From: a virus
Length of the DNA: 40,853 nt
Virus record (IMG/VR): IMGVR_UViG_3300046167_000283
Span: 1 to 40,853 of that record
Strand: one strand, 5' to 3'
The position numbers and the translations under genes are program-made. This document shows, piece after piece, positions 186-40,853 of this stretch (position 1 is the first letter of the stretch; every line of letters starts with the position of its first letter). The notes below the pieces were generated by a model. It was not told where the DNA came from, did no database searches, and saw nothing but the letters and a program-made list of their open reading frames with translations.

Positions 186-186
186 T

Positions 187-515: not shown

Positions 516-560
516 AAAAAGACCCCCGACGGACAAACTGGATGAAAACCGTCGAGGGTC
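516..560 (-). terminator. Intrinsic terminator after the DUF6378 gene
   Basis: On the minus strand, GACCCTCGACGG and CCGTCGGGGGTC form a 12-base stem with one mismatch around a 16-base loop. TTTTT follows directly. It sits between the DUF6378 gene and the 69-aa gene and is unchanged in the second copy (38079-38123). It should end or reduce leftward transcription, leaving the 69-aa gene on read-through or on its own promoter. Confidence 0.75.
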
Positions 561-600
561 AGTTGGACAGCGCGGGAGGATGCGCTGCCTGATGCTCACG

Positions 601-900: not shown

Positions 901-901
901 T

Positions 902-1495: not shown

Positions 1496-1839
1496 TGTAG
1501 ACCAACTCCCGTAAACCCTGCCAACCCTGCCAGCTGGCGTTAGGACGCAAAGCTGCGCCTCTGGCCCGACTTCGCGCCAGCGAAGGAAGGCGGGACAGTG
1601 GAGCTGCTGGTCGTCTCAAAAAAAGAGAGTGTTCGCTTTGGCGAACTCTTTTTAAGACCTGCGCCTTGACAAAGTGCGTCACTGGAGGTAAATTTTCCGT
1701 AGGAAAATTCAGCAAATCCACTGACGCACTATATAAATAAGGGGTTTGCGAGATTTCCGAATCACCCACAAATTGACCGAATTTCAGCAATGCGTCACTG
1801 CGCGTCACACATGCGTCACTGAAATTTTCCACTGACGCA
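1496..1839. other. 344-base non-coding region with iterons and hairpins (origin-like)
   Basis: No convincing gene lies here. An open frame at 1488-1853 on the minus strand exists, but its codons run through the repeats and two of three differences between the copies change amino acids. The stretch holds TGCGTCA iterons, a palindrome AATTTTCC-GTA-GGAAAATT (1691-1709), an AT-rich TATATAAATAA block (1730-1740), an intrinsic terminator (1618-1653) and a perfect CTTCGC-GCCA-GCGAAG hairpin (1570-1585). Its position next to the primase-helicase gene fits a replication origin. The second copy differs at only about three bases. Confidence 0.6.
1618..1653 (-). terminator. Intrinsic terminator, bidirectional in appearance
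   Basis: GTTCGC and GCGAAC form a stem around TTTG/CAAA, extended by AGAG/TCT pairs. A run of seven T follows on the minus strand and five T on the plus strand. On the minus strand it would stop transcripts leaving the primase-helicase operon before the 197-aa gene. It is identical in the second copy at 39182-39217. Confidence 0.75.
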
Positions 1840-1841
1840 CT
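1675..1841. repeat. TGCGTCA iterons in both orientations
   Basis: Copies of TGCGTCACTG or its close variant lie at 1675-1684, 1791-1800 and 1812-1821. Inverted copies (TGACGCACT) lie at 1722-1730 and 1833-1841, and a partial CGCGTCAC is at 1801-1808. AATTTTCC half-sites accompany them at 1691-1698 and 1823-1830, the first being one arm of a palindrome with GGAAAATT. Repeats of this length and spacing are typical of initiator- or repressor-binding arrays. The last copy overlaps the stop codon of the neighbouring gene. All copies are preserved in the right-hand repeat (39239-39405). Confidence 0.7.
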
Positions 1842-2181
1842 ACTCGATAACATCGAAATCGTCCTCTTCGTTGGCTTGCAGCCTGCTGTTCACTTCCTCA
1901 ATAAACTTGCCCAGAGGCTCAATTGCTTTCTCATACTTAAACTGGCCCTTTGACTTATGTGGCCAGAAGTTAAGCTCTGTTGTCTCACCCTTTATCTCTA
2001 TTATGCATTGCAAGTGCCACGGCGCGTTCTCGTAGTTTGGCCAGTAGAAATTTATATTTGGGTTTTCGTTTGCAAAGCTGGCGAACTCCATTGCGTTTTG
2101 CTCCTCTTCGCCATCATTGTATCTGTAGAAGCAATCGTCATAGTTTCCGCTCCACTCACGTCTCCATCGGTCATGTTTCAT
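1840..2181 (-). CDS. Variable early protein, 113 aa
   Basis: This is an acidic protein of unknown function. Its ATG overlaps the primase-helicase stop (TGATG), so translation is probably coupled. A core FYWPNY..APWHLQ (about residues 45-58) and a following TELNFWPHKSKGQ segment are shared with the allele at 39404-39730, as is the DDFDVIE tail. The N-terminal third and the segment near residues 90-103 differ strongly. Flanking genes are about 97% identical between copies, so this gene seems to have been replaced locally or to evolve fast. It lies between the helicase and the iteron region, so a role in initiation or in countering the host is possible but unproven. Confidence 0.75.
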   Translation of the reverse strand: MKHDRWRREWSGNYDDCFYRYNDGEEEQNAMEFASFANENPNINFYWPNYENAPWHLQCIIEIKGETTELNFWPHKSKGQFKYEKAIEPLGKFIEEVNSRLQANEEDDFDVIE

Positions 2182-4484: not shown

Positions 4485-4529
4485 GTTCGGACCTTTCTCC
4501 ATCCAATCGTGGGTTCGCTTTCATGGTGC

Positions 4530-4568: not shown

Positions 4569-5201
4569 CTAAAATGGTATTTCGTCCTCCAGCTCAGCTG
4601 GCGCTGCCTGCGGTGCTGGCGCAGCGGCTGGGCCAAAGTCATCGAGAGCTTCATCAACGCCGCCAGACATTGTTGTTGGCACTTCGTCAAAGTCATCGAG
4701 GCCACCGCCACCGTAGACTGCGTGCGTTACTTGCACGGTATCTATGAGCAAGCTGACGCCACCGTTGCCATCGGGATCTGTCACGGGATACGCAGTTACC
4801 TTGATGCTACCCTTTGAGCCACCCCAGAACGCCGTGTCTGCCAGCGGTTGCTTCATGCCGTCAATGACGCGAGGCTTTTCGTTTTGCTGGCCTTGGCTGT
4901 TTGTGCCATTGCGCTTGGCGCGAAACTCATAGTTGCCGCTATCGAGCTTTTTCATGCCGAAGACTTTGCTGAATGGAGCTTTGGTTTGGCACGTCTCATA
5001 GTGCGCCTTCAGCTCTGCGTGCAGCGTCTTTGCGTCATCGGCGGCCATTTCCCAAGCGATTGAGTAAGCTGCGTTTGACGCTGTTGGCGCGCACTCCTCG
5101 CTTTTTTTCTCGGAAGTGTTGTAGCGATAGCAAGCATTCAGCCGGGGATACTTAAATTCCACGTTGCGGATCATTACTGGTTTGAAGTCTGTTTTAGCCA
5201 T
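4569..5201 (-). CDS. Single-stranded DNA-binding protein, 210 aa
   Basis: This is probably the phage ssDNA-binding protein, coating unwound DNA and supporting recombination. The N-terminal 140 residues look like an OB-fold phage SSB of the DUF2815/gp2.5-like kind (FKYPRLN near residue 17, GSIKVTAYP near 130). The C-terminal 60 residues are Gly/Pro/Ala-rich and acidic, and end in ELEDEIPF. That acidic tail with a terminal Phe is the usual protein-recruiting tip of SSBs. GGAG precedes the ATG by eight bases. It sits between the RecE-like exonuclease and the helicase, the standard place in phage replication-recombination modules. Confidence 0.8.
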   Translation of the reverse strand: MAKTDFKPVMIRNVEFKYPRLNACYRYNTSEKKSEECAPTASNAAYSIAWEMAADDAKTLHAELKAHYETCQTKAPFSKVFGMKKLDSGNYEFRAKRNGTNSQGQQNEKPRVIDGMKQPLADTAFWGGSKGSIKVTAYPVTDPDGNGGVSLLIDTVQVTHAVYGGGGLDDFDEVPTTMSGGVDEALDDFGPAAAPAPQAAPAELEDEIPF

Positions 5202-5220: not shown

Positions 5221-6015
5221 TTAAAGTTCGACTGCATCTAAACGCAGCCATCGTGGCAGATCAATCACATTAGTTTGATCTGACCAACCAGTGTCCCACT
5301 TCTGGGCCTCGTTGGCTTTTGCAATCTTGCGTAGGGTCATGTGCATTTCGCCTTTGGCCCAGTCAAGATATTCCTCATGTATGATATTTGTCGAGAGCGC
5401 GTGTGCGCCTGTTTTCTCGACGTGAACGAATACGAACTGTGACGCCTCATAGCCTGCCTGCTCTATGCAGTGCATATAGAAGGCTTGCTGTATTGCGTAG
5501 TTGTACGAAATCATGTCCTTCGCCACGCCTCTGGGTGAAGCATCCTGACACGTCTTGAGATCGTATAGGACACCCTTGGCATCCCAATAGCTATCTGGGC
5601 GGCACTTGATTTTCAGCCCAGTCTCAGGGTCAGTGGCAAAGAAGCTGGCCTCGTTGACCGTTGTTGGCCCAGCCATGCGCTGCCCCACTGGATGAAACAG
5701 CACGCTATCGGCAATATTCCGCGCAAGGTCATAGTCTGAGGCGGTCAGCAGGGTTTGATCGTTTGCCTGCGCTTCCTCATAGGCTTCCGTCCAAGCCTTG
5801 CCTCTGCGTGTCTCTGGGCCGCGCACGATGCCCTTTGCTTCCTCTAGCACCATTGCGTGTACGGCGGTTCCCATATCAAACACTGGGCTTGGGCTGTATG
5901 TCTTCGCCTTCCAATGTGCCAGCGACTTGCTGTGGACCATCTTAACGTCAGATGACGATATGTGATCCTTTTTGGCGTGGTATTCCGTGTTGGATAATTT
6001 GTCAGCAGGGATCAT
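5221..6015 (-). CDS. RecE-like 5'-3' exonuclease (PD-(D/E)XK, DUF3799 family), 264 aa
   Basis: This is a nuclease of the exodeoxyribonuclease VIII/RecE C-terminal family. It should resect double-stranded ends to make single strands for annealing. Visible motifs are MGTAVHAMVLE (48-58), the metal-binding CRPDSY with D141, YDLKT with D152 and K154, and the Q..FY helix (175-180). Length fits a stand-alone RecE nuclease core. The ATG overlaps the stop of the upstream gene (ATGA) and has GGAG eight bases before it. Together with the SSB and the Hjc-like nuclease it forms a recombination module; a separate annealase is not evident. Confidence 0.88.
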   Translation of the reverse strand: MIPADKLSNTEYHAKKDHISSSDVKMVHSKSLAHWKAKTYSPSPVFDMGTAVHAMVLEEAKGIVRGPETRRGKAWTEAYEEAQANDQTLLTASDYDLARNIADSVLFHPVGQRMAGPTTVNEASFFATDPETGLKIKCRPDSYWDAKGVLYDLKTCQDASPRGVAKDMISYNYAIQQAFYMHCIEQAGYEASQFVFVHVEKTGAHALSTNIIHEEYLDWAKGEMHMTLRKIAKANEAQKWDTGWSDQTNVIDLPRWLRLDAVEL

Positions 6016-22449: not shown

Positions 22450-22811
22450 TATGCGAACTCCTTAACGTATGATGCGTGCTGAACTTCCCAGCCATGCGCC
22501 TTTAATGGTTTTTTCCAGCCAAATCGGCCAGACATTGATAGGGCGGAGCAGCCTTGAGCCTTTGCCCATGTTATCACATCGTTGTGCATATCTAAAATCT
22601 GCTCCAATTCACCGCCGCCAAGAAAGACATTTAGCACCTTCTTTTTGGGATATACCACAATTTCAGTTACTATGCACCCCTTTGGCGTCGGCCACAACTG
22701 CATGAGGCCACGCTGCAACCCATCAACTACATCCGCAAAGTCATGCGTGCCGCCGCTGTAGCTTAGAGCTGCCTCAATCCAAGGCTTACATCTGGCCAAA
22801 TCCTTATCCAT
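22449..22811 (-). CDS. Small GNAT-like phage protein, 120 aa
   Basis: Resemblance is to a small acetyltransferase-like phage protein found beside tail genes. It has a start LARCKPWIEAAL, a hydrophobic strand GCIVTEIVVYPKKKVLNVFLGGGELEQI (about 46-73) and an end W.KPLKAHGWE, as in GNAT family members. The usual acetyl-CoA loop is not obvious, so catalysis is unproven. It may be a tail-associated accessory protein. It overlaps the next gene by eight bases. Confidence 0.65.
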   Translation of the reverse strand: MDKDLARCKPWIEAALSYSGGTHDFADVVDGLQRGLMQLWPTPKGCIVTEIVVYPKKKVLNVFLGGGELEQILDMHNDVITWAKAQGCSALSMSGRFGWKKPLKAHGWEVQHASYVKEFA

Positions 22812-23454
22812 GCAACCTCGTAATTGCTATCGTTGAGGCAGGCGCGGCAGGCGCAAATGCAGTTGCGGCTGTTGCGTCAAGAAAGCCATTGGTGTTGTCT
22901 GCGGCCCACATAGCTTCAAGGTAATCCCCAGCGTTAAGCTCAAATATTGCAGAGCGCGACACAACTAAAACAGACCCGTTTTGATGTAGTGCGTTTTTCA
23001 TTGTTGACCCGGCAACGTCAGAGCCGTTGACCCGGGGCCAAAACCAGAAGTTTACAGTTGAGCTTGATGTCGATGCAATCTGCGCAGAAAAGCTAATCAT
23101 ATACTGACCAGCCTCATCGAACACAATCCGAGAGGCTGGAGTACCGTTATTAATACCGTCAGTGGTGCTGGAAGTGTAAGTCAAAGCGTAAGCTGTGTTT
23201 ATAGACGCGGCAGTTTGGTCTGCGGTCACTGCCCCGGAATACTTGCCGTCCTCCAAAACAACTTGCACCCACTCACCGTTCTTTGAGACCACCGGGTAGC
23301 CATTCACGTTATCCCATAGCATCACGCCATTTTCAGAAGCCGATGAATAAGTTTCCTTGAAGCCGAGCTGGTCTAAAGCCCGGCCAAGGTAGCGCCGCAT
23401 ATTCTCGGCCCACTGCGCTATGTCAAGCGTGATGGGTGGAAGTATTCGGCTCAT
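22804..23454 (-). CDS. Tail-fibre-like protein with a C1q/TNF-like jelly-roll domain, 216 aa
   Basis: The N-terminal 70 residues form a short helical anchor. The C-terminal 130 residues read like a C1q-like beta jelly roll (TPASRIVFDEAGQYMISFSAQI; VNFWFWPRVNGSDV; SVLVVSRSAIFELNAGDYLEAMW). Such domains end phage fibres and contact receptors. It lies next to the nozzle gene. The start overlaps the upstream stop (ATGA). Confidence 0.7.
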   Translation of the reverse strand: MSRILPPITLDIAQWAENMRRYLGRALDQLGFKETYSSASENGVMLWDNVNGYPVVSKNGEWVQVVLEDGKYSGAVTADQTAASINTAYALTYTSSTTDGINNGTPASRIVFDEAGQYMISFSAQIASTSSSTVNFWFWPRVNGSDVAGSTMKNALHQNGSVLVVSRSAIFELNAGDYLEAMWAADNTNGFLDATAATAFAPAAPASTIAITRLHG

Positions 23455-24929
23455 CTGCGGCCACCAGCTACAGCGTCAAGCCGCATAATACCAACGCGCC
23501 AATCGGACTCCGCATTGCCCGTAACGCGCATCCTAATTTGACGCCCGGTAAAACGCAGGCTTGTGGGGTTAGCCATGTTGTATGGGCCATAATCTCGCTC
23601 AGTGTCCGTCGGATAAAAACGTGTTTTAAATGTGGCATTTACATCACCCAGCGTGTTTTCGTCTGGGATCATGCCGCGCACAGCCATCACGTTCTCACCT
23701 ACGCCCAGCGCAATTGGGCCTGTCTCGGCAAAAGGAGATTGGCCACCGTAGTCAAAGCCAATCTCTTGCTCATACAGAACGCCATCTGCGGCAATCCAAA
23801 ACGGCTGACGGAATACGCCACGATCAACGCCAGCGGTGCGGTCAATCTCGCCAGTGGTCCAAATGTTTTCTGCGTAATCAAACGCAACGTAGCTGTCACA
23901 CTCTGTGCCACTGGAGCTTGGGTAAAACCACCAGATTTCGTTAAACCGACTGTTGACTACAGCGTGAACTTTTGACCTTTGGTCATTGTTCATGTCGCTA
24001 AAAACATAATCAGCAACTTCGCACGGCAAGTCTCGCACAGAGCCACCAGCGTAGATAAAGAATGAGCGCTGGCCCATCCACACTACGCCTTCATCAATCG
24101 AGGCGGCGGCGTTAGATGCAATTAAGCCACACGACGTACCGACCCGCTCAAAGCCGTAAACGAATGGAGGACCGCTGTATGTGGCTGTATGGGCGTCTTG
24201 ATCTGTTAAGATGAGCGACTGCCCGCGTGTGCGTAATCCCTTGAGGATTGTGCCGTTGGTTTGGATTTCAATGTCACCAGCCTCATTAGTCGCCGCTGGT
24301 GTCCAAGTATTGTTATCCTCACGGTCAGACCACGCAACCTTGCGAGGGTTGCCGCCTGCGCCAAAGGCAAACACAAACCGTTCTTCCGTCACCATCATGC
24401 CGGAGCAGTCCACTGGAGCGTTTGATAATACTGCCGCTGGTGTTGCGCCGTTAAGCTGCCACTCGTAAATCTTGCCGTCATCCGCCGTTGTGGCCAGCAA
24501 GTATTCGCCCCAATTTTCCAAGCTCCATGTGGTCGCCGGGAAAATAGTTCCGATGTCCTCTGACGGCAGGCCGTAAAGGCTAGTCCCGTACACACCGCCA
24601 CCGTAGCTTGTAAAAGAGGTTGCATCCACGCGGCCAGTAGTGAAGCCAGAAGGCGTAATGTCGCTTACGGCGTTACCAGAAGTCATTGCATACAGCTTGT
24701 TGGCCGTGCCAAAGGCAACGCGACGATTGCCGCTGTTGTCTTCCCACGCAACCATTGTGCGTGTTACGCCGTCTAAATCAACGCTTCCGCGCTGACGCCA
24801 GCCGCCAACTGGGCGCAAAGCACCCTCATGCCAACGAATCAAGTTGCCATCACGCCAGCGGCCTTGAGACTGATACTCAGTGCCGTTTCTGTATTGGCCC
24901 GCTGGAATGTTGAGGGGGATTAACGGCAT
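23451..24929 (-). CDS. Tail nozzle / packaged-DNA stabilisation protein, P22 gp10-like, 492 aa
   Basis: This is the likely tail-tube nozzle, plugging the portal-adaptor channel and connecting to the tail tip. The sequence is rich in beta blades with GERVVWxDxEDNNTW-like elements (KVAWSDREDNNTWTP), GTSCGLIASNAAASIDEGVVWMGQRSFFIYAGG and RFNEIWWFYPSSSGTECDSYVAFDY, as in P22 gp10 and SU10 nozzle proteins. The C-terminus includes a small domain with SLRFTGRQIRMRV. GAGG precedes the ATG. Neighbours are tail-fibre proteins. Confidence 0.85.
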   Translation of the reverse strand: MPLIPLNIPAGQYRNGTEYQSQGRWRDGNLIRWHEGALRPVGGWRQRGSVDLDGVTRTMVAWEDNSGNRRVAFGTANKLYAMTSGNAVSDITPSGFTTGRVDATSFTSYGGGVYGTSLYGLPSEDIGTIFPATTWSLENWGEYLLATTADDGKIYEWQLNGATPAAVLSNAPVDCSGMMVTEERFVFAFGAGGNPRKVAWSDREDNNTWTPAATNEAGDIEIQTNGTILKGLRTRGQSLILTDQDAHTATYSGPPFVYGFERVGTSCGLIASNAAASIDEGVVWMGQRSFFIYAGGSVRDLPCEVADYVFSDMNNDQRSKVHAVVNSRFNEIWWFYPSSSGTECDSYVAFDYAENIWTTGEIDRTAGVDRGVFRQPFWIAADGVLYEQEIGFDYGGQSPFAETGPIALGVGENVMAVRGMIPDENTLGDVNATFKTRFYPTDTERDYGPYNMANPTSLRFTGRQIRMRVTGNAESDWRVGIMRLDAVAGGRR

Positions 24930-24938
24930 GGAGAACCT

Positions 24939-27497
24939 CTATGTTTTCACTAGCATCTTTGTAGCAGATATTGCCGTTCCCGCCAAGACGCTTGGGTCGG
25001 CAGGGGTTGTGCCTACAGTGCCATCTGTCTGGACGTAGTATTGCTGACCAGCGGTGAGGCTTAATTGGTTTGTGGAGACCGTGCCTACGATGTCAACCAC
25101 AGCGTTGTCGCCGTCGGCTACTTCGCCTCTGGTAATTGTGTCTGCCTGAAATACAATTGCGTTTCCGTACTGAGAGTTAGCATCATCCTGATATGCTATT
25201 ACAGTTTTTTGTGAAGCAGTGTCGTAAGCAGCCGAAATCCACTCACTCTTTGAGCTTTCAAAAGTAAGCGCGCTTCCAAAGCTGACAGACGTACCGCTAA
25301 CCGTTCCCTCTATAACTTTACCAAAATCAGAGTCTCCGCCGTCTTGATAAGCTATAACTACTTTGTTTGTACTGGGATCAAAAACTGCTGATATGTCGTT
25401 AGTGTTTGACTCTTGAAACACAGCGGCAGTGCCAAAGCTAATAGACGTACCGCTTACTGTCCCCACAATGGCCGTGCCAAAAAATGAATTACCAGCGTCT
25501 TTATATGCTACAACAACTTTATTGCTGCTGCTGTCAAAAGCCGAAGACATCTGTGTCGCTGTTGCCGCCTCAAAAACAACGGCGGTTCCAAAGCTGATAG
25601 ACGTACCGCTTACTGTCCCTACTATCGCAGTGCCGTAGTTGCTATTGCCTTCATCGCTGTAAGAGATAACCACTTTGTTGCTGTTGCTATCAAATGTGGC
25701 AGATATTTCGTTTGTACTAGCCGCCTCAAAAACAACGTCGGAACCAAAGCTGATGGACGTGCCACTTACCGTACCTACGTTGCACGAGCCTTGATCGCTG
25801 TTGCCAAGGTCTCTGTATGCTACAACAATTTTCTGTAAGTTACTGTCATAAGTCATCGCCTTGCCAGATGCGTTGGCAGTTTTAAACACAGCGGCAGACC
25901 CAAAGCTGATGGACGTACCACTTACCGTACCTACAATAGCAGTGCCGTAGCTCGAGTTCCCCCCGTCAGTGTAAGCTACAACAATTTTTTGCGAGTTAGT
26001 GTCGTAGGTAACAGCAAAATCATAGCTACTAGCACTTTCAAAAACAACGGCGGTCCCAAAGCTAATTGATGTGCCACTTACCGTCCCTACGATTGCTGTT
26101 CCGTAGTTACTGTTGCCACGGTCTCTATATGCAATAACTACTTTTTGGCTGTTAGTATCGTAAACGGCGGACATTTGATCTGCTTCGGCACTTTCAAACA
26201 CAACCGCAGAACCTACAGACTGAGGTGAACCCGAAACCACCCCACCAGACATACCGATGTAGTTCTCGGAGGTGAGGTTGGTGTCGGCGTAGGCGTTTCC
26301 AAACGTGACAGAAGTTCCGTAGCCTAAATTTCCGTCATCCCCGTAAGCAATCACAGTTCTTTTAGACCCCACTCCATAAGCGGAGCCAATCCAATCCGTT
26401 GTGGCTGACTCGAAAACCAAAGCCGTCCCAAAGCTGATCGACGTGCCACTAACTGTACCCGCAACGACAGTGCCGTAGCTGGAATTGCTGTAATCCCGAT
26501 ACGCTACACTCACCTTTCCAGCGAGACTGTCGTATGATGCGGAGAGATCATCTGCACTTGTTCCAAAGGTAACGCTTGTTCCAAAGCTAATAGAGGTGCC
26601 GCTAACTGTGCCGACAACTGCCTCTCCCTCCACCCCAATTCTATAGATAACAACAATTTTTTCGTTAGAGGCATCATACACTAAAGAAAAGTCTGACGTG
26701 GTGTTGGTATCGTCAACAATTACAGGAGTGCCAAAGCTAATAGAGGTGCCGCTGACGGTGCCGACGGCGGCTTTCCCGTCACCGTTTGATGAGATTTGAT
26801 AACCCACAACGACTTTTTGTTCACCCGCATGATAGGCAACTGAACCCATACGGCCACTTGTTTCAATAACAGAAGCAGAACCAAAGCTAATAGAGGTGCC
26901 GCTAATTGTGCCAACAATAGCGCTGATACTTGGGTTGCCGCCGACAACTGCCGAAAACGTGATAACAACTTTCTGAGATGAGCTGTCATAAACGGAAGAA
27001 ACCCAATCAGTTGATGAACTTTCAAATACGACAATCGTCCCAAAGCTAATAGCGGTGCCGCTAACCGTGCCTACAACGGCTTTTCCGTAGTCTGAGTTTT
27101 CAGTGTCTACATAAGAAATTAAGATTTTATCTTGACCAGCGTCGTATGTTACACTTGAAAATTCTGCGCCGCCATCTTCAAAAACAACAGGTGTGCCGAA
27201 GCTGATAGATGAGCCGCTAACCGTGCCTACAACAGCCGTGCCTCTATTGCTGTTTCCTCGGTCTGTGTATGCAATGACAAATTTGCCATCAGCAGAAGCA
27301 TAGCCTACTGCTGGGCCTTCTATGTTGGCGCTTTCAAATACGACTGGGGTGCCAACAGCTTGAACTAAATCAGTCTCCTCAACAACGCTCACAGTCCCGT
27401 CAGCATTAACCACAACAGGCTGACCGCTTGGCAGTGTCCCAGATGCAACGGCCTTGAGCTTACCGCCCTCTTGCTTTGGAATGGTATCTAGTGCCAT
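24939..27497 (-). CDS. Two-propeller tail protein, 852 aa, fourteen blades
   Basis: This is probably a receptor-binding or tail-decorating protein. It holds fourteen repeats of about 45 residues with the pattern (SI)SFGxxVVF...YDxxxxKVVIAYxDxGNSxYGTAIVGTVSG, split 7+7 by a linker with NLTSENYIG. That is two seven-bladed beta-propellers in one chain. The N-terminus (LKAVASGTLPSGQPVVVNADGTVSVVEET) and C-terminus (SLTAGQQYYVQTDGTVGTTPADPSVLAGTA) match its neighbours at 27501-28943 and 29216-30649. AAGGG precedes the start. It is separated from the 27501-28943 gene by 3 bases. Confidence 0.85.
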   Translation of the reverse strand: MALDTIPKQEGGKLKAVASGTLPSGQPVVVNADGTVSVVEETDLVQAVGTPVVFESANIEGPAVGYASADGKFVIAYTDRGNSNRGTAVVGTVSGSSISFGTPVVFEDGGAEFSSVTYDAGQDKILISYVDTENSDYGKAVVGTVSGTAISFGTIVVFESSSTDWVSSVYDSSSQKVVITFSAVVGGNPSISAIVGTISGTSISFGSASVIETSGRMGSVAYHAGEQKVVVGYQISSNGDGKAAVGTVSGTSISFGTPVIVDDTNTTSDFSLVYDASNEKIVVIYRIGVEGEAVVGTVSGTSISFGTSVTFGTSADDLSASYDSLAGKVSVAYRDYSNSSYGTVVAGTVSGTSISFGTALVFESATTDWIGSAYGVGSKRTVIAYGDDGNLGYGTSVTFGNAYADTNLTSENYIGMSGGVVSGSPQSVGSAVVFESAEADQMSAVYDTNSQKVVIAYRDRGNSNYGTAIVGTVSGTSISFGTAVVFESASSYDFAVTYDTNSQKIVVAYTDGGNSSYGTAIVGTVSGTSISFGSAAVFKTANASGKAMTYDSNLQKIVVAYRDLGNSDQGSCNVGTVSGTSISFGSDVVFEAASTNEISATFDSNSNKVVISYSDEGNSNYGTAIVGTVSGTSISFGTAVVFEAATATQMSSAFDSSSNKVVVAYKDAGNSFFGTAIVGTVSGTSISFGTAAVFQESNTNDISAVFDPSTNKVVIAYQDGGDSDFGKVIEGTVSGTSVSFGSALTFESSKSEWISAAYDTASQKTVIAYQDDANSQYGNAIVFQADTITRGEVADGDNAVVDIVGTVSTNQLSLTAGQQYYVQTDGTVGTTPADPSVLAGTAISATKMLVKT

Positions 27498-27500
27498 GTC

Positions 27501-28943
27501 TTAGCCCTTCACGATAAGTTTGGTTGCAGCTACAGCAGTGCCAGCGAATACACTTGGCGATGCGGGGGTAGTCCCCAGTGTGCCGTCCGTCTGAACGTAG
27601 TAACTCTGACCTGCGGTCAAGCCAGATTGGTTCTCGTCCACAGCGCCCTTGATGTTGATCTTAGCGCCTTGCCCACTAGGTGCGCCTGTGGCGGCTGTGC
27701 CGATGTAGTTGTCAGAGGTGAGGTTGGTCACTGTCTCGTCCAGCGTCATTGTCAAAGACGTGCCGTAGCTCGAGTTACCCTCGTCTTTATAAGTAATCAC
27801 AATCCGGTTAGCCGCTGTGTCATATACCATTGCACTACCAGCAGGCTCATGCGTGGCGTTAAATGTAGACTCTGTGCTAAAGGATACTGACGTGCCACTA
27901 ATGGTGGCGGGGATTGCACTGGCCGCAGTGCTTCCGTCTCTGTAGCTAAAAACGACTTTCTGGGCGCTAGAATTATATGCCGCTCTAATTTGAGTTGTCA
28001 GTGCTGCATTGAAAATCGCTGCTGTACCGAAAGATATAGATGTACCACTGACCGCACCAACAACAGCCTTGCCTTGGTCACTGTCATTGCCGTCCCTAAA
28101 CCCAATAAGGACTTTTTCCTGAGACGCATCGTAAGCGACTGCAAGGTTTTGCGTTGAGCCTGTTTCAAACTCAACAGCACTTCCGAAGCTAATAGAAGTG
28201 CCGGACACAGTGCCGACGTTGGCAGTACCTCGGTTATTACTTGTCTTGGTGTAGACCACCACTGTCTTTTGAGAAGCGGCATCGTAAGCCAAATTTATGT
28301 TGATGACCGTTGAGCTTTGAAATGTCACCGCAGTACCAAAGCTGATAGACGTTCCACTTACCGTACCCACAACAGCCTTGCCGTGGTTTGAAGTGCCGCT
28401 GTCAGGATATGCGATGACCACTTTTTCAGACGCAACGTCGTAAACACAATCCAGCTTATTGAGTAGAGAGTCGCCATCAATCTGCGTGGAGCTGCCGAAA
28501 GTAATGGAAGTACCGCTAACAGTACCGACGCTTGCCGCAAGGCCACCTGCACTCTTTTTATATGCAACCACAACTTTACCCGCCACGCTGTCGTAGGTGG
28601 CTTGCGGCTCTGACATTCCCGCAGAAAAAAACACAACGGGAGTACCGAAAGATATGCTGTCCCCTGATACCGTGCCAACTGACGCTGTGCCGTAACTTGA
28701 GTTGCCGTTGTTTTGATAAAAAACGACAATCTTTTGATTGCTTGGGTCATACGTCAAAGCAGTCTGATCGGTTCTAGCGTCGTTGTAGATAACATCGCTT
28801 CCAAAGCCTTGGGTTAAGGATGTCTCCTCAACAACACTCACAGTGCCATCTGAGTTCACTACAACAGTGTCACCCGTGGACAACGCACCACTGGCAACGG
28901 CCTGTAATTCTCTCGCTTTTCCAGCGTTACCAATGATGCGCAT
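27501..28943 (-). CDS. Seven-bladed propeller tail protein, 480 aa
   Basis: Seven repeats of the same blade pattern (KxVVxYxxxGNSSYGTASVGTVSGxSISFG...) follow an N-terminal ELQAVASGALSTGDTVVVNSDGTVSVVEET module. After the propeller comes NLTSDNYIG and a C-terminal module SGLTAGQSYYVQTDGTLGTTPASPS. It is a paralogue of both other propeller genes and presumably a host- or sugar-contacting tail component. GGAGG lies upstream of the ATG with longer than usual spacing. Confidence 0.85.
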   Translation of the reverse strand: MRIIGNAGKARELQAVASGALSTGDTVVVNSDGTVSVVEETSLTQGFGSDVIYNDARTDQTALTYDPSNQKIVVFYQNNGNSSYGTASVGTVSGDSISFGTPVVFFSAGMSEPQATYDSVAGKVVVAYKKSAGGLAASVGTVSGTSITFGSSTQIDGDSLLNKLDCVYDVASEKVVIAYPDSGTSNHGKAVVGTVSGTSISFGTAVTFQSSTVININLAYDAASQKTVVVYTKTSNNRGTANVGTVSGTSISFGSAVEFETGSTQNLAVAYDASQEKVLIGFRDGNDSDQGKAVVGAVSGTSISFGTAAIFNAALTTQIRAAYNSSAQKVVFSYRDGSTAASAIPATISGTSVSFSTESTFNATHEPAGSAMVYDTAANRIVITYKDEGNSSYGTSLTMTLDETVTNLTSDNYIGTAATGAPSGQGAKINIKGAVDENQSGLTAGQSYYVQTDGTLGTTPASPSVFAGTAVAATKLIVKG

Positions 28944-28949
28944 ATCAGA

Positions 28950-29210
28950 TTAGTCCTCCAGCGTAGCAGGATCGACCCAATCAGGGTTCAACGTCCATGT
29001 AGTGCCGTCAAAGAAATACTTGTTACCAGACCAATCCGCAGGGGCGTTTGTCACGTTGTCAGTGACGGTCACCGTGGTGCTGTTCAAGTCACCAATGATG
29101 AACTGCGCGGGATCACCAACTGTGATGCTATCAGCAGTAGCAGTGATGGTTACGTCATCTGCAAGGAGGTACTTGCTCAGGCCGCTTGACGTTTCAACAA
29201 TAGTCTTCAT
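28950..29210 (-). CDS. Small tail-associated protein, 86 aa
   Basis: This is a beta-rich, Thr/Val/Asp-rich protein (ETSSGLSKYLLADDVTITAT; VGDPAQFIIGDLNSTTVTVTDN) ending in WTLNPDWVDPATLED. I recall similar short proteins amid tail genes of marine phages. It lies seven and five bases from its neighbours inside the propeller-protein group. Its role, such as a fibre chaperone or junction protein, is unknown. Confidence 0.7.
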   Translation of the reverse strand: MKTIVETSSGLSKYLLADDVTITATADSITVGDPAQFIIGDLNSTTVTVTDNVTNAPADWSGNKYFFDGTTWTLNPDWVDPATLED

Positions 29211-29215
29211 GGGAG

Positions 29216-30649
29216 TTACCCTTTCACGATAATGGAGTTAGAAGAGATGGCCGTTCCAGCCACAACAGACGGACTAGCAGGGGTTGTACCCAACGTGCCG
29301 TCAGTCTGCACATAGTAAGTCTCGCCAGCCGTTAAACCAGATTGGTTCTTGTCCACGGAGCAAGTCGAGTTAAGTGCTGCGGATTGACCGTCAGCGTAGC
29401 CGCTATTGGCAAAGCCTATGAAGCCCTCGGAGGTGAGGTTGGTGGTGCTGTAAGTGGGCCGGAATACAACGGATGTCCCGTACTCAGAATTTCCAACATT
29501 TTCATATGATATAACTACGGCTTCCTCGTTGGGATCATAAGCAGCCGACACAAAATTTACTCTACCGCTTTCTACAACTAATTTAGAGTCAAAACTAATA
29601 GACGTTCCACTCACAGTACCGGCTATTGCCGTCCCATAGTTAAGGTTGCCAAGATCTGCATAAGCTATAACAACCTTTTGAGCCGCAGCATGATACACAA
29701 TGGAATTATAATTGGCTACTCCAGTGTTAAAAACTGCAGCAGTGCCAAAACTAATTGATGTCCCACTAACAGTGCCAACAGTGGCTAAGCCCTCAGTTGA
29801 TGCATAATAAGCTATAACAACCTTTTGAGCAGAAGCATCATAAGCTATGTTAATACTATTAGTGCCTTCGCTTCTAAAAACAACAGGACTGCCAAAACTA
29901 ATAGACGTGCCACTTACAGTTCCCACAATAGCTGTACCGTAACTACTATTGCCATTGTCATGGTAAGCTATAACAACCTTTTGGGCGCTGGCGTCATAAG
30001 CGATTGACTGTACGGTAGTATCCGCATTGTTGTATATTACAGGAGAGCCAAAACTTATTGATGTGCCGCTGACAGTGCCGACTATAGCAGTACCCTTGTC
30101 AGTGTTGCCGCCATCCTCGTAGCATATAACTATCTTCTGGGCGTTAGTGTCGTAAGTAGATGAAAGATTAAGAGGGTCGGTCGTGTCAAATAACACACGA
30201 GTGCCAAAACTAATGGAAGTTCCGCTAACAGTCCCCACAATGGCAAAGCCATCATTACTTTCGTTATAAATTACAACTACCTTTCCAGCACTAGCATCAT
30301 AAGTGGAGGAAAGCCGAGTTGTATTACCGCTCTCAAACACTACTGGCGTCCCAAAACTGATTGAAGTGCCGGACACAGTGCCGACTACAGCGGTGCCGTA
30401 TGCGGAGTTACCAACGTCGGTATAGGTCACTACAATTTTCTGAGAATTAACATCGTAAGCAGTTGAGGTCCGAGATATTATGTCGCTTTCAAACGCTACA
30501 GAGATACCACTAGCCTGCGTGACATTCGTCTCTTCGATAACACTAACAGTGCCATCTGAGTTCACAGAAACAGCTTCTCCAGTGGCTAACGCACCAGAGG
30601 CGATAGCACGAACTTCACCATCTACAGGGGCGTTGCCAATAAAGCGCAT
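29216..30649 (-). CDS. Seven-bladed propeller tail protein, 477 aa
   Basis: This is the third paralogue: an N-terminal EVRAIASGALATGEAVSVNSDGTVSVIEET module, then seven blades (KVVIAYxDxGNxxYGTAIVGTVSGTSISFG), NLTSEGFIGFAN and the C-terminal SGLTAGETYYVQTDGTLG module. Blade sequences differ mainly in the loops after SFGxxVxF, where target contact would be expected. Its start overlaps the upstream stop (TAATG). A tail-receptor role is inferred from position and fold. Confidence 0.85.
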   Translation of the reverse strand: MRFIGNAPVDGEVRAIASGALATGEAVSVNSDGTVSVIEETNVTQASGISVAFESDIISRTSTAYDVNSQKIVVTYTDVGNSAYGTAVVGTVSGTSISFGTPVVFESGNTTRLSSTYDASAGKVVVIYNESNDGFAIVGTVSGTSISFGTRVLFDTTDPLNLSSTYDTNAQKIVICYEDGGNTDKGTAIVGTVSGTSISFGSPVIYNNADTTVQSIAYDASAQKVVIAYHDNGNSSYGTAIVGTVSGTSISFGSPVVFRSEGTNSINIAYDASAQKVVIAYYASTEGLATVGTVSGTSISFGTAAVFNTGVANYNSIVYHAAAQKVVIAYADLGNLNYGTAIAGTVSGTSISFDSKLVVESGRVNFVSAAYDPNEEAVVISYENVGNSEYGTSVVFRPTYSTTNLTSEGFIGFANSGYADGQSAALNSTCSVDKNQSGLTAGETYYVQTDGTLGTTPASPSVVAGTAISSNSIIVKG

Positions 30650-31023
30650 TAGCTGATCTCTTCGTAGCTTACGATAACTTCCAAGTCGTTTGCTGTGCCA
30701 GCAGTGACGGTGATAGAGCGATCTTCCTCAAGATAAAGAGCTGTGTTCTTGTCAATAGCAATCAGCGACGAGTCGGCAGGGACAGATGCAGTTGCAACCA
30801 ACGAGTAAGCTGTGCCGCCGCCAGATGCTGCGTTGTGTACATCTACAGTCACGTCGCAGGCATTTGCGCCATCGACATTGGCAATCTGGATCATGTTGAC
30901 CTTAAATACCTTGCCGCTGGATGCAGCGTTGCTAACGACCGAAGTCGCGGATGTTGAACTTAAAGCCACCATTGCCGACTTGGCAGTGATAGTGGCTACA
31001 TTTACTACGTTTGGGGCGGCCAT
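30649..31023 (-). CDS. Tail-region beta-rich protein, 124 aa
   Basis: A Thr/Ser/Ala-rich beta protein (KVFKVNMIQIANVDGANACDVTVDVHNAASGG...AYSLVATASVPADSSLIAIDKNTALYLEEDRSITVTAG) of a kind I recall next to tail-fibre genes in marine phages. AGGAG precedes the ATG. It likely is a small virion component or assembly factor; the exact role is unknown. Confidence 0.72.
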   Translation of the reverse strand: MAAPNVVNVATITAKSAMVALSSTSATSVVSNAASSGKVFKVNMIQIANVDGANACDVTVDVHNAASGGGTAYSLVATASVPADSSLIAIDKNTALYLEEDRSITVTAGTANDLEVIVSYEEIS

Positions 31024-31035: not shown

Positions 31036-31221
31036 TTAACCGAATACAATCGCCATAGCGATGGCTTTTCCTGTTGAAGCTGCTGCGTCGGCCTTGTCTT
31101 CGACAGTCTTTAATGTCGTGTCAAGATCGTCCCAGTTGCCATTTAGATAACCACCCCAAGCGTCTTCGTCGCCGCCTACGGTTGGCTTATTCCAAGAATA
31201 GTTTGTCGTTGTCGTAGGCAT
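31036..31221 (-). CDS. Small tail-fibre N-terminal-like protein, 61 aa
   Basis: The pattern TNYSWNKPTVGGDEDAWGGYLNGNWDDLD (residues 5-33, in two pieces) is an anchor motif seen at the start of many phage tail-fibre proteins. The rest is a short helix and a hydrophobic end. It may be a stand-alone anchor or adapter. ATG 31221 is chosen because it overlaps the upstream stop; an upstream in-frame ATG lies inside the previous gene. Confidence 0.7.
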   Translation of the reverse strand: MPTTTTNYSWNKPTVGGDEDAWGGYLNGNWDDLDTTLKTVEDKADAAASTGKAIAMAIVFG

Positions 31222-31883
31222 TACGCGGCCCTCTCTAAGTAGTCTGCTTCTGTCCAAGTCGTAGATGGATCAGACGCTTCTGTCCATATGGTTGTCGGTT
31301 CAGGTGCGTCTTCCCATTTATATCTCGCATTTACGGCTGGCGTAAATTCAATATTATCGGAAATCGCAACATTTCTTATCCTGATATACCCTATATCGGA
31401 AGAAATTGAAATAGCAGCGCTTGCAGAGGCAACCACGTCGTAAACACCGCGCGCAGTCGTTGTAAACTCAATCGCTGTTGAAGATGAAACATTCCGCGTA
31501 ATACCGCCTGCAACGCTAACGGCAAAAGTAATGTTTGCGGTCGCGCTTGCATCTTCTGTGCTGCGGTTTTCGCCGTAAATATACGAGCCGTAAGTGTTTA
31601 AGCCGTAACCCGGACGGAAACCCGGTATAACTTCATATGTAATTGCAGAAACATTTGCAATGCCGCCAAGGCTTACGCTGGCCGACGCATCTGCAACGCG
31701 AACACCCGTTGGCTGTGACGAAACAAATGCAATGGACGCTGAAGATGACGCGTCAACAATCGTAACAGCAGACGCAGAAACAGAAACGCCAATAGACGCG
31801 GAAGCCGCGCCCTGCGTAGTCTCAGGCTCGCCGTATAACCCAGAGTTGAAAACACCTGAGTTATATGTGGAGCGCAAGGCCAT
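31221..31883 (-). CDS. Repetitive Ser/Ala/Val tail protein, 220 aa
   Basis: The body repeats short SASIxxxVSASAxxxxDASSSASIxF-like beta strands (about residues 25-190), then ends with EDAPEPTTIWTEASDPSTTWTEADYLERAA. The N-terminus has NSGVFNSGLYGEPE. Such strand-rich, low-complexity proteins often form fibres. It overlaps both neighbours by TAATG. Function is inferred from the tail location only. Confidence 0.65.
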   Translation of the reverse strand: MALRSTYNSGVFNSGLYGEPETTQGAASASIGVSVSASAVTIVDASSSASIAFVSSQPTGVRVADASASVSLGGIANVSAITYEVIPGFRPGYGLNTYGSYIYGENRSTEDASATANITFAVSVAGGITRNVSSSTAIEFTTTARGVYDVVASASAAISISSDIGYIRIRNVAISDNIEFTPAVNARYKWEDAPEPTTIWTEASDPSTTWTEADYLERAA

Positions 31884-32317: not shown

Positions 32318-32938
32318 CTAATAGCTAGTCACACGCATTCTAAGGCCAGAACCAGCAAAACGTGTGTCATCTGACGCCTTCTGCATCGACTGAATAGCCG
32401 CAGAATAAAGCGCGGCCCAAGTCTCCGCTCTGGCGTCATCATTCAAATATGGTGCAGCCTGAATTAGCGAGCCGTAAAGGTAAATGTCAGGCGCGTCAGT
32501 CAAAAGCCAATTTGTTGTGTTACTATCACTCAACGCAGGCGTTTTAGCATAATACTGAAGCTGCATCTGATACTCAGCGGCAGGCGTTGGGAAAACCTCA
32601 ATGGTGTCGCCAATGTTTGCGTAAAACTTTGGAATGCCAGCAATGTCAGACGTGTTCTGACGATACTCGAGCATGTCATCGCGAGAAACCAACTCAAGGC
32701 GATAAGTTGTGCCAGATGTAATGCCAAAGCGTACAGTCTCAAGCCAATCAGCAGGCATCTGCACATAACGACTATCAAGCGTAGCATCAACGCGGTTTAT
32801 CATCTTGTAATGCCGTAAGTCACGATTAATGCCTGCCTCAGTCAAACTGATAAAATCAGGAATGACCGACGTAAGATCGTCGCGGTTAAGCCAGTTGGCT
32901 ATGCTAGACTTTAGCTCTGCGTAAGTTGTAATTGCCAT
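32318..32938 (-). CDS. Head-to-tail adaptor, SU10/P22 gp4-like, 206 aa
   Basis: This is the likely ring that attaches the tail to the portal. The pattern TYAELKSSIANWLNRDDLTSVIPDFISLTEAGINRDLR, then MPADWLETVRF, and then YYAKTPALSDSNTTNWLLTDAPDIYLYGSLIQAAPYL matches phage adaptor proteins of podoviruses with P22/SU10-like portals. It is 206 aa, close to the family size. The start overlaps the upstream stop (TAATG). Confidence 0.85.
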   Translation of the reverse strand: MAITTYAELKSSIANWLNRDDLTSVIPDFISLTEAGINRDLRHYKMINRVDATLDSRYVQMPADWLETVRFGITSGTTYRLELVSRDDMLEYRQNTSDIAGIPKFYANIGDTIEVFPTPAAEYQMQLQYYAKTPALSDSNTTNWLLTDAPDIYLYGSLIQAAPYLNDDARAETWAALYSAAIQSMQKASDDTRFAGSGLRMRVTSY

Positions 32939-37472: not shown

Positions 37473-37850
37473 TTTAACATATCCTCCATCTAGTGTCGCT
37501 TAACAGTTAATTGTTTTGAGATAGGTGGTCAACATTTTTTTGCGAGCGTGTGTGCGGGAAACTACACACACACTCCCCCGTCGAAACGTTGACCGGGGGG
37601 GGGTATTTGAGCGTCGTTTAACAGAAAAATGTCATAATCAGTCATATGTAAAGTCAAGCCCTCAATGCTTACAATGACTTAGCTTGCTTCGGCGTTATTG
37701 TTAACTGCGCCAGCACTAGCAAACACAACATGTAGTATTGAGGGCTTGTAATTGAACAAGCGTTCAATTAAGCGAGCGCACCCGGCGCGTCGTTGCCAAC
37801 CAGTGTCGCAGAGCGCTCCAACACCATCTGACACGCGCTCACAGCCTCTC
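37473..37850. other. Early-late intergenic region (right copy) with control elements
   Basis: 378 bases without a confident gene lie between the HNH start and the 69-aa gene. They contain an imperfect GTGTGTG...CACACAC hairpin (37548-37571), the poly-G hairpin (37574-37603), the candidate promoter (37629-37657), the 94-base hairpin (37655-37748) and the 20-bp palindrome (37750-37769). The part from 37564 to 37809 is identical to bases 1-246. A possible second promoter, TTGACC-N17-TAACTG, reads toward HNH near 37500-37530. Confidence 0.55.
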
Positions 37851-38060
37851 TCAGTGTATGGTATCGTTCATCCCGGCCATCAGCTCACCAGCGTCGCCAA
37901 GCTCAACCAGAGCCTCCACCATTGCTTGCACGATGCGCTGCATGTCGGCTCCATGATGCAGCCGCTCTTCAACGTACTCGGCCAGCCATGTAAGCTCTGC
38001 CTCCGCAGCGTCGTCGTCTTCGCAGGCTATGTCGAGGCTCATTCTAATTCGGTGAGACAT
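37851..38060 (-). CDS. Small acidic early protein, right copy, 69 aa
   Basis: This is the second copy of the gene at 288-497. The protein sequence is unchanged; the differences are synonymous. The start has the same AAGGGTGG ribosome site. It is followed on the left by the non-coding control block upstream of the HNH gene. Confidence 0.7.
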   Translation of the reverse strand: MSHRIRMSLDIACEDDDAAEAELTWLAEYVEERLHHGADMQRIVQAMVEALVELGDAGELMAGMNDTIH

Positions 38061-38078
38061 GCCGCCACCCTTCTGCGT

Positions 38079-38123
38079 AAAAAGACCCCCGACGGACAAA
38101 CTGGATGAAAACCGTCGAGGGTC
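38079..38123 (-). terminator. Intrinsic terminator, right copy
   Basis: This is the same 12-base stem with one mismatch and TTTTT tail as at 516-560, with unchanged sequence. Confidence 0.72.
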
Positions 38124-38163
38124 AGTTGGACAGCGCGGGAGGATGCGCTGCCTGACGTTGACA

Positions 38164-38463
38164 TTAAGTCTGCTGCGTCGGCACGTCAAGCATACCCTCA
38201 TCCAGCTCACAGCCCAGCGCCAAGTATGCAGCGCCATCGCAGCTGCTATCGTGATGCGGCCCATTACGCAGCCTTGCCAGCTTCAATAGCGCCATTAGCC
38301 TACACACGTCGCCCGGCGATACCTTGATGCCCAGATATGCTGACCACATATGCGACGTTGCTCCAAAGTTCTCCTGCGGCGTACCGTAGTGCGCTTGGCG
38401 CGGCCCATTAATCAGCCCGATGGCTTCCTCTAACACCGCTGTGCGTACATTCTTCTGCGTCAT
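38164..38463 (-). CDS. DUF6378-family protein, right copy, 99 aa
   Basis: This is the second copy of the gene at 601-900, differing by a few mostly silent changes and two near the C-terminus. The start lies after a GGAGAG site and the upstream gene's stop. The conservation suggests ongoing selection. Confidence 0.8.
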   Translation of the reverse strand: MTQKNVRTAVLEEAIGLINGPRQAHYGTPQENFGATSHMWSAYLGIKVSPGDVCRLMALLKLARLRNGPHHDSSCDGAAYLALGCELDEGMLDVPTQQT

Positions 38464-38464
38464 T

Positions 38465-39059
38465 TCACTCTCCATTAGGTTCAAAGTTAATCTCATCATC
38501 AAACGCCCGGACGTCTATAATCCTTGCCCCGGCAAACTCTTTTGTCACAGCCGCCACCATTTCATCTGTGCGCACGCTCATGACTGCGCAGACCTCGCTG
38601 ATATGATACACGGCCCACGTTGGATACTTGCGCCGGACAGCTGCCAGATCACCGCTGGCGAGGAAGCAATACGTCTTCCCCTTAAACTCGGCTATATGCC
38701 CGTCAACCTTCGGCGGCTCATGGCCCATCCTGCCTTGCCTTCACGTTCATCACCTTGAGCGCCTTAATCAGGCTTGTGGCTAGCTGTGCGCACAGCGTGT
38801 AATCGTCTGCAACCATCGCTGCGTTCAGCTCACCCTTCAGCTCACGATAGCGCAGCGCGTATGCTGGCGGCACACAATTGACCAGCGTATCTCCCCACAC
38901 CTTAGCCGCCGCTGCTGACGCGAAGGTGAACGGCTCAACCGCTGCTGCTACCTTGTAGTGGATCGGCTTGTCATAGTCAGTATGCTTGCTTTCAAACGTG
39001 CCACGATTGGCCATCGCTGCTTTAGCCTTATCCGACTTTGGTTTTGCTTTTTTAGCCAT
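38465..39059 (-). pseudogene. Frameshifted 197-aa early protein, right copy
   Basis: This is the counterpart of the intact gene at 902-1495. One additional C in the run at 38723-38726 (CCC versus CC in the left copy) shifts the frame and splits the gene in two. Removing it restores 198 codons. Both halves are otherwise conserved, with a variable patch near the codons for the DDYTLC segment. It is likely a sequence error or a recent lesion. Confidence 0.72.
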
Positions 39060-39181
39060 TGTGGACCAACTCCCGTAAACCCTGCCAACCCTGCCAGCTG
39101 ACGTTAGGACGCAAAGCTGCGCCTCTGGCCCGACTTCGCGCCAGCGAAGGAAGGCGGGACAGTGGAGCTGCTGGTCGTCTC

Positions 39182-39217
39182 AAAAAAAGAGAGTGTTCGC
39201 TTTGGCGAACTCTTTTT
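39182..39217 (-). terminator. Intrinsic terminator, right copy
   Basis: This is the same bidirectional-looking hairpin as 1618-1653, sequence unchanged. It separates the iteron region from the 197-aa gene. Confidence 0.75.
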
Positions 39218-39238
39218 AAGACCTGCGTCTTGACAAAG

Positions 39239-39405
39239 TGCGTCACTGGAGGTAAATTTTCCGTAGGAAAATTCAGCAAATCCACTGACGCACTATATAA
39301 ATAAGGGGTTTGCGAGATTTCCGAATCACCCACAAATTGACCGAATTTCAGCAATGCGTCACTGCGCGTCACACATGCGTCACTGAAATTTTCCACTGAC
39401 GCACT
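39239..39405. repeat. TGCGTCA iterons, right copy
   Basis: This is the counterpart of 1675-1841, with all forward and inverted iterons, the AATTTTCC palindrome and the AT-rich block preserved. It lies in the 344-base gene-free stretch 39060-39403. Confidence 0.7.
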
Positions 39406-39730
39406 ACTCGATAACATCGAAATCGTCCTCTTCGTTGGCTTGTGTTACTCTTTTTGACAGCTCCGCGAAGAACGCGCTCATTGGCTCAATAGCCTTTTCA
39501 TATTTGAACTGTCCCTTTGACTTATGTGGCCAGAAGTTAAGCTCTGTCTCCTCATCGCTGTTTATGTAGAGCATGGCCTGCAAGTGCCACGGTGCGGCGT
39601 CATAGTTTGGCCAATAGAATGCCAGAATGTCGTTGCGCTCCGCGTGAAAGGCAAACTCTTGCACGTTTATAAACTGCTCCATATCTTTGTAGAAGCAATC
39701 TCTCGGGTTTCCTGTCCACTCACGTCTCAT
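39404..39730 (-). CDS. Variable early protein, divergent right allele, 108 aa
   Basis: This is the same locus as 1840-2181 but an allele five codons shorter. It shares FYWPNY..APWHLQ, TELNFWPHKSKGQ, FKYEKAIEP and the DDFDVIE tail. The N-terminal third and a C-terminal segment are much changed. It overlaps the primase-helicase stop (TGATG). Function is unknown. Confidence 0.75.
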   Translation of the reverse strand: MRREWTGNPRDCFYKDMEQFINVQEFAFHAERNDILAFYWPNYDAAPWHLQAMLYINSDEETELNFWPHKSKGQFKYEKAIEPMSAFFAELSKRVTQANEEDDFDVIE

Positions 39731-40853
39731 CAGTTCATCTCCCCAACTCTGCCCGTTGATACGATGCCTTTGCGCTCCCTGCGCTGGCTTGGGCTATGAT
39801 AGACAATTTCCTCCAGTAAACCTTCATCATTCCACTGGCGCAGGATTGTCTTTGCCTGCCCTGCTGACTTTGTGTGGTCTAGGTCTGGGAACCTGTAATT
39901 TGTGATGACTGCGCCGACCCAGCGTTGCTTGTCCTGCGGCCTGATAGAATACTTCTCGCCATCCTCTGGGCCTTTGTCGATCAGGTCTAGCATATTGTTG
40001 ACCACACGGGTTGTCATGCCTGCCCACTGATCTGGCAGCTTAAACTCAACGGCCACGCCAACATATTCGCCGTTGTCCAGCTGCGTGCTGACCATGCGGC
40101 GGTAGATTGCTTTGTCGGCTGGCAATGGTGCGCTGAGATTAGCTTTGCCATCATCTACTCGGAAAACGCCCGTCGCGTTGGCTTCCGGCACACCGAGCGC
40201 CACTGCGTCCTCAAACTTCACTTTGTTTATAACTCTGGCTGCTCTAGCTGCGCCAATCAGTGAACCTGCGCCGCGCACTGAGTCAATGTCGGCGTCCTCA
40301 CCGTTGCCTTTGCGCACATGGTGAACCACATGCACGGCACAGCCAGCCTCTCTAGCCAGCTGGCGCAGCATGGCGACAACCTTCTGCACACTCATATTGG
40401 AATTCTCATTGACTTCGTGCGTCGAGATAAATGGATCAATTATGGCCAAGCCGATATTATTAGCCTTTATCTTGTCTCGCATGTGGCTCAGGAAGGCGTC
40501 ATTGGTCTCAATGCCGTCCCTTGTTTCCGCAGCAAGCGTGATGCCGATTGTGTCTTCGGCGTCCATGAATAGTTTGCCGGCGATTTCTGGGTGCGTGACG
40601 TTGTGTTGCTTCATGGCGGCGGCCAGCCTGATCTGCATTTCCGTCATGTCATCTTCTAAATTGACGATCCAAACATTTGTTGCCTCATGCACCTTCTCAC
40701 CCAGCAATGGCCGCCCGGTCACCACAGCTAACGCCTCAACCATTGTGAGCGAAGTCTTGCCGATACCGCCGGCAGACGCCGTGACGCTAACAAAGCCTCG
40801 AATGTGGTGATGCCCGTAAATCCACCGCCTACGCGGTAAACTTGCTTCGTCGA
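39730..40853 (-). CDS. Primase-helicase, partial right copy (5' part cut by the window end)
   Basis: This is the C-terminal helicase half only, matching bases 2181-3304 with about 97% identity. It contains Walker A GGIGKTS near the window edge, Walker B, VHHVRKG and RGAGSLIGAARA. The reading frame is open to the right end, so this is truncation by the window rather than gene loss. On the circular map it continues into base 3305. Confidence 0.88.
   Translation of the reverse strand, partial: DEASLPRRRWIYGHHHIRGFVSVTASAGGIGKTSLTMVEALAVVTGRPLLGEKVHEATNVWIVNLEDDMTEMQIRLAAAMKQHNVTHPEIAGKLFMDAEDTIGITLAAETRDGIETNDAFLSHMRDKIKANNIGLAIIDPFISTHEVNENSNMSVQKVVAMLRQLAREAGCAVHVVHHVRKGNGEDADIDSVRGAGSLIGAARAARVINKVKFEDAVALGVPEANATGVFRVDDGKANLSAPLPADKAIYRRMVSTQLDNGEYVGVAVEFKLPDQWAGMTTRVVNNMLDLIDKGPEDGEKYSIRPQDKQRWVGAVITNYRFPDLDHTKSAGQAKTILRQWNDEGLLEEIVYHSPSQRRERKGIVSTGRVGEMN

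Follow-up and report, generated by a model that had tools for sequence, protein, structure and literature searches.

The 40,853-base record IMGVR_UViG_3300046167_000283 of an uncultured virus, a marine tailed virus, was analysed over its whole length and is called the window here. Within it lie three related, tandem genes made of repeated propeller blades (P0004, P0002 and P0001), and they raise the question of what these proteins are and which unit is exchanged when they diversify. At a probability of about 0.78, the three genes are read as tail adhesins of a short-tailed phage, in which a slot-specific adaptor carries exchangeable whole seven-bladed propellers. All three are located on the minus strand, which an earlier note on this DNA had not stated, at the coordinates which that note gave. 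The genes and their parts are as follows (aa, amino acids; N and C modules, the conserved ends of each protein).

29216-30649, minus: slot 1 gene P0004, 477 aa; N module ~30524-30649, one 7-bladed propeller ~29444-30523, C module ~29219-29443
27501-28943, minus: slot 2 gene P0002, 480 aa; N module ~28818-28943, one 7-bladed propeller ~27729-28817, C module ~27504-27728
24939-27497, minus: slot 3 gene P0001, 852 aa; two 7-bladed propellers
27372-27497, minus: N module of slot 3 (P0001 residues 1-42); putative 5' homology arm of the exchange, within a stretch 99.2% identical to the related locus L016
26283-27371, minus: propeller A of P0001 (residues ~43-405); another, unrelated propeller at the same place in the otherwise near-identical L016
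26211-26282, minus: linker TNLTSENYIG...QSVG of P0001 (residues ~406-429), between the propellers; putative 3' homology arm of the exchange
25134-26210, minus: propeller B of P0001 (residues ~430-788); 99.7% identical in L016
24942-25133, minus: C module of slot 3 (P0001 residues ~789-852); slot-specific

Blade number and propeller fold

A blade profile made from 28 hand-cut blades found 7 blades in P0004, 7 in P0002 and 7+7 in P0001, in agreement with the counts of the earlier note, and the N module, C module and NLTSENYIG linker were present as described there. Blades were spaced by about 52 residues, with a step of 72 residues at the P0001 linker. The strict S[IV]SFG-type motif occurred only 6, 6 and 13 times in the three genes, since no SISFG strand precedes the first blade in any of them. 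The segment that follows the N module appears to stand in for this strand and would close the ring. Both end modules were present in 145 distinct relatives, of which 90 had 7 blades, 38 had 14, and the remaining 17 had 8 (8 genes), 13 (6 genes) or 5, 9 and 15 blades (one gene each). Most of these exceptions are scoring or profile edge effects, as the genes have normal 7- or 14-blade lengths with either an extra end match or a gap of one missed blade. The seven-blade quantisation in the relatives is not due to chance.

Structure prediction, which the earlier note had proposed as a check, returned confident seven-bladed propellers. The AlphaFold2 model of P0004, made with 66 sequences, reached a predicted local distance difference test score (pLDDT) of 93.3 and a predicted template modelling score (pTM) of 0.87, with a four-strand pattern repeated in each of the seven blades. 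In P0001, both propellers were modelled with pLDDT > 90 in most blocks, linker residues 408-421 had pLDDT < 50 and the end modules were poorly modelled. By the models of P0004 and P0001 and the blade count of P0002, the three genes would encode four closed seven-bladed beta-propellers.

A Foldseek search with a single propeller matched sialidases, the Photorhabdus PLL2/PHL seven-bladed lectins (target template modelling score, TMt, 0.73-0.76) and integrin-type propellers, all at 6-13% identity. Among viral models, the top three matches were unnamed proteins (50, 43 and 25% identity), followed by gp49 of Lentibacter phage ICBM2. The propellers could not be assigned to a family by sequence searches of Pfam, PHROGs, NCBIfam and PDB: the curated Pfam/NCBIfam propeller families (Kelch, WD40, FG-GAP, sialidase) had no match above cut-off, the NCBIfam search of the propeller proteins had no matches, and PDB was searched with both the protein and the profile without a match, the likeness to PLL/PHL lectins being structural only, with sequence homology absent. 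Cyclophil_like2, the sole Pfam match above cut-off, was rejected, since it spanned just a short stretch of one blade (33-38 residues) and none of its domains passed individually.

The loops after the first strand had been expected to vary most, and this held in the blade alignment across relatives, in which columns 10-16 reached 3.0-3.8 bits compared to about 0.2-1.3 bits in GTVSGTSISF. Judging from the antiparallel order of the strands, both variable segments would share one face, on the side away from the N and C termini. The reverse transcriptase family RVT_1 (PF00078) was not found in the record, which may be incomplete and in which a template repeat was not searched for separately; on this ground, diversification by a diversity-generating retroelement was rejected.

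Slot-marking end modules and exchanged propellers

In most relatives the genes follow the order tube A gene, small genes, P0006, slot 1, P0003, slot 2, slot 3 and P0005. Each slot can hold 7 or 14 blades. Complete blade sets were 7/7/7 (11 loci), 7/7/14 (7 loci, the window among them) and 14/7/14, some of the loci being near-duplicates, and incomplete sets include 7/14/14 and 14/14/14.

Slot signal was compared in 84 non-redundant 7-blade genes, with the nearest relative taken from another virus and the slots assigned by N-module motifs, so that the C module and propeller were independent of the assignment. The nearest relative of the C module was found in the same slot in 84 of 84 genes, as was that of the N module, where the figure is partly built in because its motifs defined the slots. 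For the propeller, the same slot was found in 34 of 84, chance being 34%. Mantel correlations were 0.67 between N and C modules, 0.001 between N module and propeller, and 0.066 between C module and propeller. A gene's slot can be read from its short N and C modules, whereas its propeller carries little or no slot signal. Whole propellers are common to different slots of different viruses at 80-99.7% identity, with DNA identity collapsing in both end modules; between slot 1 of L072 and slot 3 of L084, the propeller is 99.7% identical and the end-module DNA 25-78%. Seven-blade propellers are also found within 14-blade genes, where they make up the first or the second half (L011 and L095; L045 and L042). 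Natural genes consisting of N and C modules without a propeller occur in two relatives (L083:7956-8324 and L105:8825-9199). These propeller-free genes match part of phrog_4368, of unknown function.

The most direct view of an exchange is given by L016, which is 99.2% identical to the window over 27372-28984 and 99.86% over 22701-26282. Between these stretches, window positions 26283-27371 (1.09 kb, exactly propeller A of P0001) correspond to an unrelated propeller in L016 with about 50% nucleotide identity. At the left border a few scattered differences come first and divergence is complete from nucleotide 126 of P0001; the right border coincides with the TNLTSENYIG codons. When a donor of this propeller A of the window was sought, no match exceeded 48% identity. 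In a systematic scan, 34 replacement comparisons were found in all three slots (window and L016 included; not independent of each other), with replaced stretches of about 1.07-1.23 kb or 2.26-2.33 kb between flanks of 93-99.9% identity. One of them, L094 and L095, is a change from 7 to 14 blades. Elsewhere in the bank, P0004 has a 92-93% identical orthologue in L007, P0002 a 99% identical counterpart in L016, and propeller B of P0001 is 91% identical (88% at the nucleotide level) in L017, whose N module comes from a different subfamily.

At the level of single blades, all near-identical pairs (156 of 156) were found at the same blade index. Blade identity within one propeller was 0.409, compared to 0.431 for same-index blades between propellers. 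With a looser threshold, 22 of 60 matches were off-register, and three in-register partial mosaics were seen, so part of a propeller is occasionally exchanged. The unit that moves is the whole propeller, not the blade. The genes hence combine conserved modules, by which the proteins are presumably attached to the tail, with an exchangeable head domain.

Position among the tail genes

The genes around the bank, and two recombination-type genes elsewhere in the window, are as follows.

28950-29210, minus: small gene P0003, 86 aa, between slots 1 and 2; same place in most related loci
23451-24929, minus: P0005, 492 aa, gene after slot 3; phrog_3287 virion structural protein, conserved boundary of the bank
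30649-31023, minus: P0006, 124 aa, gene before slot 1; conserved boundary of the bank
32318-32938, minus: tail-tube-A-like virion protein; phrog_2941, with a weaker match to phrog_10775 'tail protein'
4569-5201, minus: Gp2.5-like single-stranded DNA-binding/annealing protein
5221-6015, minus: exonuclease VIII-type nuclease

Relatives of P0005 are annotated as 'phage stabilization protein' (P22 gp10 / tail tube B type). Genes for the portal (phrog_1216), scaffold and major head protein lie further on and, together with phrog_2941 and phrog_3287, place the virus among P22-type short-tailed phages. In Octadecabacter DB virus 2, an isolated podovirus (MW805364), the tailspike gp10, gp11 and the tail fibre gp12 are found at the position of the bank, which therefore occupies the place of known tail-fibre and tailspike genes, as expected of receptor-binding proteins. 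P0003 is 44.6% identical to a small protein adjoining the propeller gene of Lentibacter phage ICBM2, labelled 'tail assembly chaperone' in one record and 'tail fiber protein' in another. In L047 and L082, a propeller unit stands at the end of a shaft of tail-fibre type (TAAELNILDGVTAT). Position, these shafts and the likeness of P0003 make a tail-adhesin role of the three genes likely. The propellers are predicted to be present in the virion and to bind the host surface, probably glycans. Of the receptor- or glycan-binding bank proposed in the earlier note, the set of related surfaces in tail-gene position stands as observed, and the binding is an expectation drawn from it.

Further architectures were seen among the relatives. 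L112 and L124 carry several consecutive N-propeller-C units in a single chain, and in L124 (8063-15124) one open frame of 2353 aa holds four such units with 28 blades. The L124 contig was binned as a Euryarchaeota genome and is probably misbinned phage. The search for hosts in the genome collection matched only two metagenome bins labelled Euryarchaeota (L124 and L125), and since both are probably misbinned phage contigs, no host was obtained. In L078 (4464-6731) and L028 (6066-8285), the C module of the slot 2 gene is interrupted, ahead of the YYVQTDG stretch, by a second propeller-like array built from a different type of repeat (DGTKMYVxG...VYQYSLS).

Competing explanations and known systems

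In the favoured explanation, the N and C modules would form a split adaptor that docks one slot-specific protein onto the tail, and their correlation suggests that they fold together as one docking domain holding the propeller outward. The exposed binding head would be one or two complete seven-bladed propellers. Homologous recombination at conserved arms (AVASG...DGTVSV before the propeller, NLTSENYIG after it) could replace, add or remove whole propellers between viruses and between slots, with co-infection as the possible occasion and the phage's own exonuclease VIII-type nuclease and Gp2.5-like annealing protein as candidate machinery. As the propellers are exchangeable cassettes, one virus would display several binding surfaces, any of which could be renewed in one step, and swaps probably change what the virus can stick to. 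We give slightly better than even odds to a broader proposal of plug-in host recognition, in which three slot-specific split adaptors accept, lose, double or exchange propellers from a pool shared by marine podoviruses, with slot-independent compatibility. If true, host range would arise by combinatorial assortment of propellers and not by point mutation or reverse-transcriptase diversification.

That the propellers are catalytic, as sialidase- or depolymerase-like tail enzymes and not pure adhesins, would fit the several sialidases among the top structural matches. Those matches share only 7-13% sequence identity, however, no sialidase or hydrolase family was matched, and the blades are near-repeats of each other, so an enzymatic role is judged unlikely.

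Some observations do weigh against exchangeable adhesins. Positive selection in the loops was tested for and not seen between recent copies: the ratio of nonsynonymous to synonymous substitution rates (dN/dS) was 0.43 in the variable loop and 0.08-0.22 elsewhere, so that even the loop value is below 1. All of the close relatives come from metagenome assemblies, in which the shared modules could promote assembly chimeras. The window itself has direct terminal repeats of 3.3 kb (1-3302 and 37564-40851; 93.1% identity), so that the last part of the 773-aa primase/helicase (2181-4502) recurs as a 337-aa open reading frame at 39730-40743 with 98% protein identity. Probably the assembly of a circular genome ran on beyond its ends and drew on two strains, which suggests mixed strains in the assembly. 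The apparent swaps could accordingly be chimeras formed at conserved modules in mixed-strain metagenomes. Yet some arrangements were assembled more than once, each time from a separate metagenome (L075 and L084; L011 and L012), and 5-20% divergence has since accumulated in many shared propellers, often leaving 80-95% identity, unlike the expectation for chimeras. The replaced stretch is also nearly always exactly one or two propellers. Because of the recurrence and the divergence, chimeric assembly is quite unlikely overall, though possible for any single pair.

A similarly low probability is given to vertical duplication, in which copies of slot 1 became slots 2 and 3, a fusion took place in one of these, and the genes later diverged without exchanging domains. 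The three genes do share their modules, and the N and C modules follow slot descent. For the propellers, this history is contradicted by the contrast between their chance-level slot signal and that of the end modules, and is refuted by the clean replacements between near-identical contigs unless these are assembly artefacts. Of the duplication series with one fusion that the earlier note described, the one two-propeller gene remains; a local series does not, since the three slots are conserved across many viruses and the propellers lack slot ancestry. Recombination or slippage between tandem blades as the main diversifier, a substrate that note had pointed to, is very improbable, for despite the repetitive blades, the internal similarity of some propellers (0.55 within propeller B of P0001) and the partial mosaics, every near-identical pair is in register, blade number is held at 7 or 14, and the off-register matches are weak and among consensus-like blades.

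Domain mosaicism in modular phage receptor-binding proteins is already established, with a conserved attachment part, an exchangeable receptor-binding domain and recent high-identity exchange as in the window (Smug et al. 2023, PMC10684548). Here, in contrast, the exchanged unit is internal, flanked on both sides, common to three paralogous slots and single or doubled; propellers and paralogues are not mentioned in the main text of that paper. Host-recognition islands are likewise established in marine phages (PMC3909814), and in these metaviromic islands, too, host-recognition genes differ between otherwise near-identical genomes; whole genes, islands or fibre C-termini vary there, whereas the breakpoints here lie inside the gene at module borders. 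In the phiGT1 paper, the rule is that fibre N-termini stay and C-termini are replaced (PMC10386132). A three-slot propeller bank was not found described in the open-access literature, subscription papers being outside the search. Modular receptor-binding proteins are known, and the three-slot propeller bank is new as a variant of them. The exchange of receptor-binding domains is usually inferred from distant mosaics; here it appears as single, clean one-domain replacements between near-identical viruses. With the same domain in different gene slots, single or doubled, the modular host-range idea becomes directly testable with a defined cassette and borders. The findings also suggest that the propeller rather than the blade is the evolutionary unit of these repeat proteins.

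Among individual proteins, gp49 of Lentibacter phage vB_LenP_ICBM2 (AYP28108.1) shares the blade type, similar N and C modules and an adjacent P0003-like 'chaperone' gene, but is 30% identical, present in a single copy, annotated as a hypothetical protein and has a tail-fibre-type N terminus. The Photorhabdus PLL/PHL lectins share the seven-bladed, near-repeat propeller matched by fold, but are bacterial lectins without adaptor modules at 11-13% identity. The propeller of the Staphylococcus phage phi11 receptor-binding protein is five-bladed. That protein is likewise a phage host-recognition protein with a propeller (PMC4901313), but of another propeller type and architecture, and no sequence relation was found.

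Octadecabacter Antarctic DB virus 2 (MW805364), a podovirus with a P22-type neck (PMC9239159), shares the tail gene order, with 49% identity in the portal and 58% in P0005, but has no propellers at the corresponding place. P0007 (window 31221-31883) ends in W-T/E-rich repeats (TIWTEASDPSTTWTEA), and L107:7065-8591 was noted alongside. By sequence, these repeats resemble the end of DB virus 2 gp11, annotated as ribonuclease E, which suggests a shared virion protein with a misleading name.

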